From positions 1-38,268 of the forward strand of contig DUUV01000104.1 in NCBI GenBank assembly GCA_012841375.1: a DNA stretch of 38,268 nucleotides, read 5' to 3'. Numbering within the stretch: the first letter of the stretch is position 1; every line of letters begins with the position of its first letter. Below the pieces are notes generated by a model. That model was not told the DNA's origin and searched no databases. It saw nothing but the letters and a program-made list of their open reading frames with translations. Positions 22,774-26,203 of this stretch are shown here, piece after piece. A program made the position numbers and the translations under genes. The stretch is from Candidatus Fermentithermobacillaceae bacterium. Its GTDB lineage: Bacteria; Bacillota; Sulfobacillia; Fermentithermobacillales; Fermentithermobacillaceae.

Positions 22774-24408
22774 TTACTTCCTTCTCAGTACCTTTCCCGC
22801 GTAAACCGGCTTGACTTCGCCTTTCTCCATGGCCACTTTCCCGTTCACCAGCACGTAATGGATGCCTGCCGGCTTCCGGTAAGGCTCTTTCCCCGTGGCC
22901 GTGTCCATGAGCTCGGCGGGGTCCAGGACAACAAGGTCAGCCCAGTAGCCGACCTCGACGAGCCCTCTGTCGGGAATCCCCATGGTCCTGGCGGGCATGA
23001 ACGTGCACTTTCTCACGGCTTCTTCGAAGGAGAACAGGCGGTCCTCTTTCACGAACCTCCCCGCGATTCTTGGAAACGTGCCGAAGTGCCTCGGGTGTAT
23101 GGGCGTGGGCGATAGTGGCCTGTCGACGTTGAAGGCATCCGTCCCGGCCATGACGAATTCGGCTTTCACAACCGTACGTACATCATCGGCTCCGATGGCT
23201 GCAGCGGCCCATACGTCCAACCCGTCACTGAAAATGAGGTCCAAGAGGATATCGACTGCGGGCTTGCCGGCCTCTTCTGCGTACTCGCCCAGAATCCGTC
23301 CCTCAACTTGAGGGATCGACGGCGCCTTCACGATCACGTAGTTTGAAAGGCGCGGCATGGCTGCGGCCAGTTCGGGCAGGGCCCTGACCTTTTCTTTGTT
23401 GGAGGTGTCTCTGAAGAACGCGCGGATGTCCTCCACCGAAGGGAACCTGGGATACTCATCATTGTCGCCTGCGATTAGTTTCCTCCAGACATCGCCGGCG
23501 ATCGAGGCAAGTGAACTGGCCTGGGCGAACTCGTAAGGATAGACGTCCGCGGTGATGCGTAGACCTTGCTTCCGGGCCTCCGCGATCATCTCGAGACTCC
23601 TATTCACCTTGCCGAAGTGCTTCTTGCCGGTGGACTTGTGATGGGAGATCTCGGCCTTTACTCCTGACTTCCGGGCGATCTCAATTACTTCCTGAACCGA
23701 GGGGAACAGGTTCTCCCCTTCGTTCTTCATGTGCGTCGAGTACATGCCGTCGTATTTCGCGACCACTTCGGCAAGGGCGATTATCTCATCGGTGTCGGCA
23801 TGCCCGCCGGGCCGGTAGCTCCTTCCCGTGGACATCCCCCAAGCGCCTGCCTCCATGGCGTCTTCCAGCAGGACCTTCATTGCCGGAAGTTCCCCCGGAG
23901 CCGGAGGGCGCTTCTCGGTTCCCACAACGTGGGCCCTAAGCAAGCTTTGGCCTACGAGCGGCGCGATGTTGACGCCGATGCCGGTAGCATCTACGGTGTC
24001 CATCCACTCACCGAAAGAGTGCCACGACCAACTCATATCATTGTAGGTGTCCCGGTCTACGAGCCCCGATATGAGGCCCCTCAGCACGCTCTTGCGGGTC
24101 TCATCTTTTGAAGGCGCGACCGACCACCCGCAGCTTCCCACTACTTCGGTGGTGATACCCTGGGACAACGAGCTCTCGCCTTTTCGGTGAGACAGAATGG
24201 AGAGGTCGGAATGGGAGTGCATATCGATGAATCCGGGAGTCACGCATAAGCCGGGTACATCCAGCACGGTTTTCGCGGCGGCCTGAGACAGGTTCCCTAC
24301 GGACACTATTCTTCCCGATTTCACGCCGACGTCGGCCCGGAACGCGCTTCTGCCCGAGCCGTCCACAACTTGGGCCCCACGTATCACAAGATCCAACAAC
24401 CGGTCCAC
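22774..24408 (-). CDS. N-acyl-D-amino-acid deacylase (D-aminoacylase)
   Basis: This 544-residue protein belongs to the amidohydrolase superfamily and removes the acyl group from N-acyl-D-amino acids, or an equivalent group from a related D-substrate. Visible metal and substrate motifs are DMHSHSD (His64, His66), GSCGW (Cys93, the conserved metal-bridging Cys of D-aminoacylases), STHMKNEG, ISHHK and GTDAF. The C-terminal beta part contains GYWADLVVLDP and VLVNGKV. The annotated start is GTG 24408. A TTG four codons in is better spaced from the SD AGGGGGTGG and may be the real start. It is cytoplasmic and would recycle D-amino acids from peptidoglycan or peptides. Confidence 0.9.
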   Translation of the reverse strand: MDRLLDLVIRGAQVVDGSGRSAFRADVGVKSGRIVSVGNLSQAAAKTVLDVPGLCVTPGFIDMHSHSDLSILSHRKGESSLSQGITTEVVGSCGWSVAPSKDETRKSVLRGLISGLVDRDTYNDMSWSWHSFGEWMDTVDATGIGVNIAPLVGQSLLRAHVVGTEKRPPAPGELPAMKVLLEDAMEAGAWGMSTGRSYRPGGHADTDEIIALAEVVAKYDGMYSTHMKNEGENLFPSVQEVIEIARKSGVKAEISHHKSTGKKHFGKVNRSLEMIAEARKQGLRITADVYPYEFAQASSLASIAGDVWRKLIAGDNDEYPRFPSVEDIRAFFRDTSNKEKVRALPELAAAMPRLSNYVIVKAPSIPQVEGRILGEYAEEAGKPAVDILLDLIFSDGLDVWAAAAIGADDVRTVVKAEFVMAGTDAFNVDRPLSPTPIHPRHFGTFPRIAGRFVKEDRLFSFEEAVRKCTFMPARTMGIPDRGLVEVGYWADLVVLDPAELMDTATGKEPYRKPAGIHYVLVNGKVAMEKGEVKPVYAGKVLRRK

Positions 24409-24460: not shown

Positions 24461-24492
24461 GCAGTCACGTCTCTCGCTGCCTGCATATTATG
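24461..24492 (+). promoter_or_regulatory. Candidate sporulation-sigma promoter of the repeat-protein gene
   Basis: CATATTATGTC begins at 24484, 43 bp before the GTG start, and differs at one base from the element upstream of the YjcZ-like gene (CATAATATGTC). It fits a SigG -10 (CATNNTA) and partly fits SigE/SigK -10 patterns. GCAGT (24461-24465) is a weak -35 at 18 bp. Confidence 0.4.
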
Positions 24493-24526
24493 TCACCGAG
24501 GTATTCACAAAAGAGGTGACAGTGGG

Positions 24527-26149
24527 GTGAGCAACTGCATTAGCGCATGTCTCGTTAAGGTCCTGCAACAGCAGCTGCGGAGAATCGAGGCCAAACTCGA
24601 CAACCCGCGGACCGGGCTTTGCGAGATCAAGTCTGAGGTGGCCGTAGTTGAGGGAGCTGTGACCGATCCGTGTTTCGGACTCAAGCAGATTGCCGAGGGT
24701 GTGGCGAATCTTGAGGATATCCTGTGTGACATCGAACCGAAAGAACTCGCTTGCGTGTTGGAAGCCATCCAGGATGGAGTAGAGCATATTGAGGCCAAAC
24801 TGGACGACCCGTGTTTCGGTCTGGAAGAGATCAAGGACGAAGTAAGAGGCATAGAGGAAGCCGTCCAAGCCATAAAGGACATACTCAAGGACGCGCCCAA
24901 GGACGGACGTAAAGACAATGATCTTGACGAGATCAAGGAGATCGTCGAAGGCATCGCCGATGAAGTGGATGACATCGAGGATAAGCTTGACAGTCCGGAG
25001 TTCGGTCTGGCGGAGATCAAAGAAGAGGTAAAGGAGATCGAGGACCAACTCAAGAGGCTGGACCTGGAGGATATCCGCTGCCTGCTCAGGGACATCAAAG
25101 AAGCGGTAGATGACATTGAGGACGAGGTCGAGGACGAAGAGCACGGCCTGGCGGAGATCAAGGACGAGGTAAAGGGGATCGAGGACCAACTCAAGAGGCT
25201 GGATCTGGAGGATATCCGCTGCCTGCTCAGGGACATCAAAGAAGCGGTGGGTGACATTGAAGACGAGGTCGAGGACGAAGAGCACGGCTTGGAGGAGATC
25301 AAGAAGGAAATAAAGGAGATCGAGTGCCTGCTCAAGAGCCTGGACGTGGAAGACCTGAAATGTTTCCTGGACCGGATCAAGGAAGCGGTAGGCGACATCG
25401 AGGACGCGATTGAGGACCCGGAGTTCGGCCTTTGCGAGATAAAGAAGGAGATCCGGGACATAGAATGCCTTCTCAGAGAACTGGACATGAGAGACCTCCT
25501 GTGCCTGCTTGCGCGCATCAAGGCAGACATCTGCGACGTGCAGGCCGCTCTGAACGATCCTTGCACGGGCCTTCTCGAGATCAAGAACGAGGTAAGGGAC
25601 ATCGAATGCAAGCTGGATAACCCCGAGTACGGCCTTGCCGAGATCAAGCGCGAAGTCAGGGACATTGAGGATAAGCTGGATAACCCCGAATACGGTCTGG
25701 CCGAGATAAAGGCCGAGGTAAGGCAGATCCTGGAGGAGTGCTGCGACGGTAACGGAAATGGACCGGTGGACGAGGAGGCTCAGACGTCAGGCCCGATGTT
25801 CAAGGCAAATCAGGCCAGTTCGGTCATCGTTCAGGTCCTAAACTACTTCAGCGAACCGGTAGAAGTGAGTATCTCTGTCCTGAACCTGCCGCTCAGCGGG
25901 ACGAAGGAAGACGTCCCCGGGTCGCCGGTCACGGTGACCATAGATGCCGACGAAACCTTCGCCCAGGCGTTCGACATATCGGATTCGGTCGCCTACGAGG
26001 TCCAGATTTTCACCGATAACCCGCAATGGGTGAGGTACTGGTCCGGGTCCAGGACACAGCCGGCCAACGTGGCCCTTACTGCGAGTACCATCCTTCCTGA
26101 GAACATCGTGCTTCACGCCGACTTTGTCCGGCAGCCGCTCGCCCCTTAG
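24527..26149 (+). CDS. Large acidic repeat protein with coiled-coil units and a C-terminal beta domain
   Basis: This 540-residue protein is dominated by ten copies of a motif of the form LDxPxxGLxEIKxEV (about residues 20-425). Successive copies are spaced 21, 47, 62, 47, 47, 47, 47, 21 and 21 residues apart. Twenty-one is three heptads, and the 47-residue form adds a 26-residue helical insert such as QLKRLDLEDIRCLLRDIKEA. The units are highly acidic and carry many cysteines. The N-terminus has no signal peptide. A final domain of about 115 residues, from VIVQVLNYFSEP on, looks beta-rich. Two 141-bp units at 25036 and 25177 are almost identical, showing recent duplication. The start is GTG 24527 with SD AGAGGTG. 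I know similar EIKxEV repeats in clostridial proteins but no function. The upstream element suggests sporulation, perhaps a spore-surface role. A strong terminator follows. Confidence 0.8.
   Translation: MSNCISACLVKVLQQQLRRIEAKLDNPRTGLCEIKSEVAVVEGAVTDPCFGLKQIAEGVANLEDILCDIEPKELACVLEAIQDGVEHIEAKLDDPCFGLEEIKDEVRGIEEAVQAIKDILKDAPKDGRKDNDLDEIKEIVEGIADEVDDIEDKLDSPEFGLAEIKEEVKEIEDQLKRLDLEDIRCLLRDIKEAVDDIEDEVEDEEHGLAEIKDEVKGIEDQLKRLDLEDIRCLLRDIKEAVGDIEDEVEDEEHGLEEIKKEIKEIECLLKSLDVEDLKCFLDRIKEAVGDIEDAIEDPEFGLCEIKKEIRDIECLLRELDMRDLLCLLARIKADICDVQAALNDPCTGLLEIKNEVRDIECKLDNPEYGLAEIKREVRDIEDKLDNPEYGLAEIKAEVRQILEECCDGNGNGPVDEEAQTSGPMFKANQASSVIVQVLNYFSEPVEVSISVLNLPLSGTKEDVPGSPVTVTIDADETFAQAFDISDSVAYEVQIFTDNPQWVRYWSGSRTQPANVALTASTILPENIVLHADFVRQPLAP
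25036..25317 (+). repeat. Near-identical 141-bp tandem repeat within the repeat-protein gene
   Basis: Copies at 25036-25176 and 25177-25317 encode the 47-residue unit and match closely at the DNA level, including the stretch from GAGGACCAACTCAAGAGGCT on. Silent and conservative differences are few, which indicates recent duplication or gene conversion inside the gene. Confidence 0.75.
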
Positions 26150-26169: not shown

Positions 26170-26203
26170 GAGGGGCGCCGGGCTCGGGCGCCCCTCTCCT
26201 CTT
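26170..26203 (+). terminator. Strong intrinsic terminator of the repeat-protein gene
   Basis: GAGGGGCGCC (26170-26179) and GGCGCCCCTC (26187-26196) form a perfect 10-bp stem with a 7-base loop, followed by TCCTCTT. Confidence 0.75.

Follow-up and report, generated by a model that had tools for sequence, protein, structure and literature searches.

A periodic stalk-and-head protein of a Candidatus Fermentithermobacillaceae bacterium as a candidate spore-layer component

What is the role of a 540-residue protein built from a long series of short repeats and a terminal beta domain, encoded in the 2.37 Mb MAG of a Candidatus Fermentithermobacillaceae bacterium? The window, i.e., the whole stretch of DNA analyzed (38,268 nucleotides), carries its open reading frame on the forward strand, starting with GTG. 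The features referred to in the following are:

24467-24492, forward strand: sigma-K/E-type promoter box (AC at 24467-24468, 15-nt spacer, CATATTATG at 24484-24492), conserved in orthologues
24512-24518, forward strand: ribosome-binding site AGAGGTG, by direct reading, identical in orthologues
24527-26149, forward strand: EIK-repeat stalk/beta-head protein, 540 aa, orthologues 87, 81, and 71% identical
24527-24613, forward strand: N-terminal arm, residues 1-29 (MSNCISACLVK...), Cys4 and Cys8 invariant among orthologues
25004-25567, forward strand: four 47-residue units, residues 160-347, the first two with 94% DNA identity
25568-25756, forward strand: three C-terminal 21-residue units, residues 348-410, from core positions and orthologue alignment
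25778-26146, forward strand: C-terminal beta-sandwich head, residues 418-540, from the TSGP motif, eight strands, from the AF2 model and as a domain shared by the family

The repeats are defined by 10 GLx(E/Q)I cores at residues 30, 51, 98, 160, 207, 254, 301, 348, 369, and 390, corresponding to spacings of 21, 47, 62, 47, 47, 47, 47, 21, and 21 residues. This is exactly the pattern described by the original prediction and lies far above chance, with shuffled stalks yielding a mean of 0.04 cores (maximum 2). Self-identity of the stalk peaks at lags of 47, 94, and 21 residues, amounting to 0.42 at lag 47 and 0.24 at lag 21 in comparison to at most 0.15 in shuffles. The full string LDxPxxGLxEIKxEV, claimed for all ten copies, is by direct reading matched exactly in five, the others being degenerate (e.g., VEDEEHGLAEIKDEV). 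Owing to the 94% DNA identity between the units at residues 160 and 207, the sequence suggests a recent unit duplication. The protein is strongly acidic (pI 4.2) and cysteine-rich, as predicted; all 19 Cys fall within residues 1-408, leaving a cysteine-free head. Ser and Thr contribute 1.3% and Asp and Glu 32% of the stalk, and no signal peptide is apparent by eye (MSNCISACLVKVLQQQ), likewise in agreement with the earlier reading. Three orthologues (L039, L046, and L065), all from Ca. Fermentithermobacillaceae MAGs, allowed the comparison of copy numbers, and the expected length variability was found, the differences amounting to complete units of 47 or 21 residues. From the core at residue 160 to that at residue 348 (window numbering), L065 has seven 47-residue spacings, compared with four each in the window protein and the two other orthologues, while the terminal 21-residue spacings number two in the window protein and L039, one in L046, and zero in L065.

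Modeling of the last units together with the head by AF2 resulted in an eight-stranded sandwich with a pLDDT of about 95, preceded by three helices of 13-17 residues interrupted at NPEYG. The full-length model, of low confidence (pLDDT 42.5), places one helix of 17 and one of 22 residues in each 47-residue unit. Within the family, 337 of 405 spacings (83%) are multiples of seven and fit a heptad register, whereas 47 and 62 do not, and AF2 interrupts the helices at (D/N)PxxG. An elongated rod is a plausible shape for the window stalk. No Pfam family was assigned to the head in a scan of three heads. Its fold matches, namely a carbohydrate-binding module (Z 7.7), Thermotoga TM1070 (7.3), and a rhodopsin transducer (about 6), were set aside and no function was drawn from them, since unrelated sandwiches also score in this range. 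Whole-protein Pfam/NCBIfam matches to DUF1664, P10, laminin, SMC, and Rad50 were rejected as generic coiled-coil hits, and sequence matches in the PDB were mostly designed or generic coiled coils.

A scan of ~85,000 species genomes with the seed [FY]GLxEIKxE[VI] provided 62 loci, all from Bacillota according to their record titles save one Acetothermia protein, which was rejected; a vWA protein (L069) and a match of the head profile in genome G154 were likewise discarded as non-members. The clostridial relatives mentioned in the original prediction do exist, accompanied by others elsewhere in the Bacillota. Where the C-terminus is complete, most members have a common head that starts at (T/S)(T/S)GP and contains an invariant G and an invariant N; the description of this domain as unrelated therefore did not hold. 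Because the beta-sandwich usually follows the repeats across relatives, it represents the constant partner of the family. The window gene combines tandem (D/N)PxxGLxEIKxE(V/I)xxIE repeats, besides its 47- and 62-residue spacings, with the C-terminal (T/S)(T/S)GP beta-sandwich and an upstream AC-N14-17-CATAnnnT box. The head is rare, with a true member in only one of 245 Clostridia genomes, the seed genome itself, and it is absent from the fetched sequence of some members (e.g., L027 and L064), in several cases owing to contig ends. Relatives were found neither in phages nor in plasmids or viral contigs. A literature search with the motif strings of the family returned no paper on it, and this EIK-repeat/beta-head family of spore-forming bacteria is apparently undescribed. 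Four loci (L064, L027, L035, and L047) are repeat-only, rich in Lys, Arg, and Glu, and headless in the fetched sequence, possibly forming a separate stalk-only branch. In L034 and L072, a strongly hydrophobic stretch immediately ahead of the first repeat is possibly a membrane anchor.

Evidence on the time of expression comes from the upstream region. The AC-N15-CATATTATG box sits 43 nt ahead of the gene start, and the upstream DNA of four orthologues has diverged apart from TCAC...CATATTATGTC and the ribosome-binding site. At most 130 nt from the start, an AC-N14-17-CATAnnnT box was detected in 26 of 43 non-redundant family genes (1.4 expected by shuffling) compared with 15 of 195 other genes of the same loci. 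For the stricter CATATNAT box, defined after the sequences had been seen, the counts were 19 of 43 and 2 of 195; of the two, only the AC/CATAnnnT form came from prior knowledge. An AC was found in 26 of the 30 boxes, AC-bearing sites having been preferred at selection. In C. difficile, the -10 element is common to sigma-E and sigma-K, while AC at -35 is the mark of sigma-K (PMC3789822). We infer that the window gene would be transcribed via sigma-K; a sigma-70-type site was not found for it. A conserved CATATA -10 element also precedes spoIVA of the genus. Scanning the host genome for the box yielded 13 sites in comparison to three in a reversed control, most of the 13 looking fortuitous once the downstream ORFs were read. 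One further AC-N17-CATATTATGTC box (L086, G000:C38:35059) lies ahead of three ORFs, one of 105 residues, one small and hydrophobic, and one YbaB-like, which on sequence grounds are a candidate sporulation operon.

SpoIVA is encoded in 33 of the 39 genomes holding relatives, including all 13 isolates. Since 174 of 245 Clostridia genomes have SpoIVA as well (Fisher p = 0.08 for enrichment), its presence provides weak support. The few family genomes devoid of it are all MAGs and may be incomplete; a frequent occurrence of homologues in non-sporulating genomes, which would have spoken against the original prediction, was not observed. The host genome contains a sigma-K-like gene and adjacent sigma-E/sigma-G-like genes, while its spoIVA is only a contig-edge fragment, being whole in close relatives. 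Sporulation was predicted from the genome for Ca. Fermentithermobacillus carboniphilus of the same bacterial family (PMC10215811). Within this bacterial family, three genomes of genus g3 (G005, G008, and G010) gave no SpoIVA match and no EIK-repeat/beta-head member, and G005 and G008 gave weak sigma-K/E matches only; this genus apparently is a lineage that lost sporulation.

As the promoter and the gene neighborhoods of the family point to the coat or spore surface, we consider it probable, at roughly two in three, that the window protein is a spore-layer stalk-and-head protein made by the mother cell, analogous to BclA and equipped with a helical repeat stalk. The first interpretation, a variable repeat stalk with a head, with relatives and an association with spores, is retained in part, the head not being unrelated and the models not showing an extended coiled coil; its spore association is backed by the sigma-K/E-type promoter, the SpoIVA distribution, and a spore-type glycosyltransferase adjoining the genes of relatives. 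For the window protein we infer location in a spore layer, oligomeric state, cross-linking, and display: A structural protein would be produced in the mother cell during late sporulation and incorporated in an outer spore layer, either the coat or the exosporium surface. Short alpha-helices in 21-residue units, with the 47-residue unit as an elaboration, would fix the length of the stalk, which may grow or shrink via duplication or deletion of whole units. The constant beta-sandwich head would be displayed, or docked, at the stalk end, and the stalk cysteines would probably cross-link the protein. Its function would be that of BclA-type collagen-stalk proteins, with a helical, heptad-phased stalk instead.

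The glycosyltransferase link concerns the relatives. Of ten downstream genes that were tested, nine code for a GT2 glycosyltransferase with TPR repeats and the remaining one for a polysaccharide pyruvyl transferase; in a wider neighbor set, GT2 was the commonest family (28/120). When members were divided by a stalk Ser/Thr content of at least 10% or below, a GT2+TPR gene was located within 300 nt downstream in 17 of 21 rich members versus 0 of 17 poor ones (Fisher 2e-7). The SgtA protein of C. difficile (358 aa) shares this GT-plus-TPR architecture and, encoded beside bclA3, puts O-GlcNAc on threonines of the collagen-like BclA3 stalk (PMC7157674). By analogy, the S/T-rich stalks of many relatives are probably O-glycosylated by the adjoining SgtA-like enzyme. 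The window protein, judged by its stalk composition and the lack of an adjoining glycosyltransferase, belongs to a naked, acidic, S/T-poor subtype.

In an unlikely alternative, the protein is sporulation-specific and buried as an internal coat or inter-layer scaffold, its cysteine-rich stalk being cross-linked and its head binding another coat protein. The promoter evidence would fit equally, and the acidic, S/T-poor stalk, the absence of a glycosyltransferase beside the gene, and the 19 Cys agree with it; against it stand the link of relatives to an SgtA-type enzyme that acts on a known surface stalk and a variation in repeat number resembling that of surface fibers.

The preferred reading, a BclA-like stalk-and-head protein, shares with BclA-type proteins such as BclA3/SgtA of Clostridioides difficile the stalk of variable length, the C-terminal beta head, and spore-related control, and in the relatives also the S/T-rich stalk with an adjacent GT+TPR glycosyltransferase. 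It differs in that, by direct reading, EIK repeats predicted to be helical replace collagen Gly-X-Y, the head has no Pfam relationship, and the window member combines an acidic stalk with the lack of an adjoining GT+TPR gene. Concerning a C1q/TNF-like head, no BclA chain appeared among the matches listed, the best being the carbohydrate-binding module (Z 7.7). Because collagen repeats are absent, the window protein is, by its sequence, not a member of the BclA family despite a putatively like function. Many cysteines and presumed spore-layer cross-linking are shared with CsxA/B/C of Clostridium sporogenes (PMC4942563), which, by description alone, are not portrayed as EIK-repeat stalk proteins.

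Quite improbable is a role in an endospore appendage, be it as a subunit, as an anchor, or at the tip, comparable to the F-ENA anchor with its collagen stalk and terminal head. A terminal beta domain on a stalk of variable length is common to both, and such anchors are known Bacillota-wide (PMC11952670); however, F-Anchor stalks consist of collagen or DUF11, Pfam scans of three heads listed neither DUF4183 nor DUF3992 among their matches, and no appendage-like neighbor was recognized at the window locus.

The surroundings of the gene bear on the last alternative. About 195 nt downstream, an ECF sigma gene begins on the same strand; anti-sigma, PspC, and LiaF-like genes follow it in an order that is conserved wherever the orthologue contigs extend far enough. 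Although this order could suggest that the protein is regulated together with the ECF sigma/anti-sigma/PspC operon and acts as a coiled coil in the vegetative envelope or the cytoplasm, the conserved sporulation-type box of the gene itself, the different neighbors of relatives elsewhere, and the failure to find a sigma-70-type site make this very hard to sustain. A terminator scan at the window gene found none, and a GC hairpin beyond the stop codon, at about 26170-26196, was not significant in the window. Upstream, a D-aminoacylase-like amidohydrolase (22774-24408, reverse strand) has no match in the orthologue loci, in all three of which an AlaX-like gene directly precedes the repeat gene, reflecting either an insertion in the window lineage or a loss from those of the orthologues. 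The window locus lacks a neighboring glycosyltransferase or known spore gene.

The spore surface governs adhesion, spread, and recognition of spores, and to our knowledge its proteins are largely uncharted except in a handful of species of Bacillus and Clostridium. By its repeats, head, promoter, and link to glycosyltransferases, the family can be recognized and supplies candidates from Desulforamulus, Neobacillus, Clostridium, Thermovorax, and uncultured Bacillota, suggesting that non-collagen stalks can fill the purpose of BclA. A more far-reaching proposal, to which we give slightly less than an even chance, is a new class of spore-surface fibers across Bacillota, in which a heptad-phased helical rod replaces collagen and a conserved head is combined with glycosylated and naked forms.

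The same genome also encodes a short paralogue (L002, G000:C154:12032-12139), in which a single repeat is combined with a related, cysteine-rich head; a CATACCATGG box lies upstream in all three of its orthologues (L068, L076, and L078).
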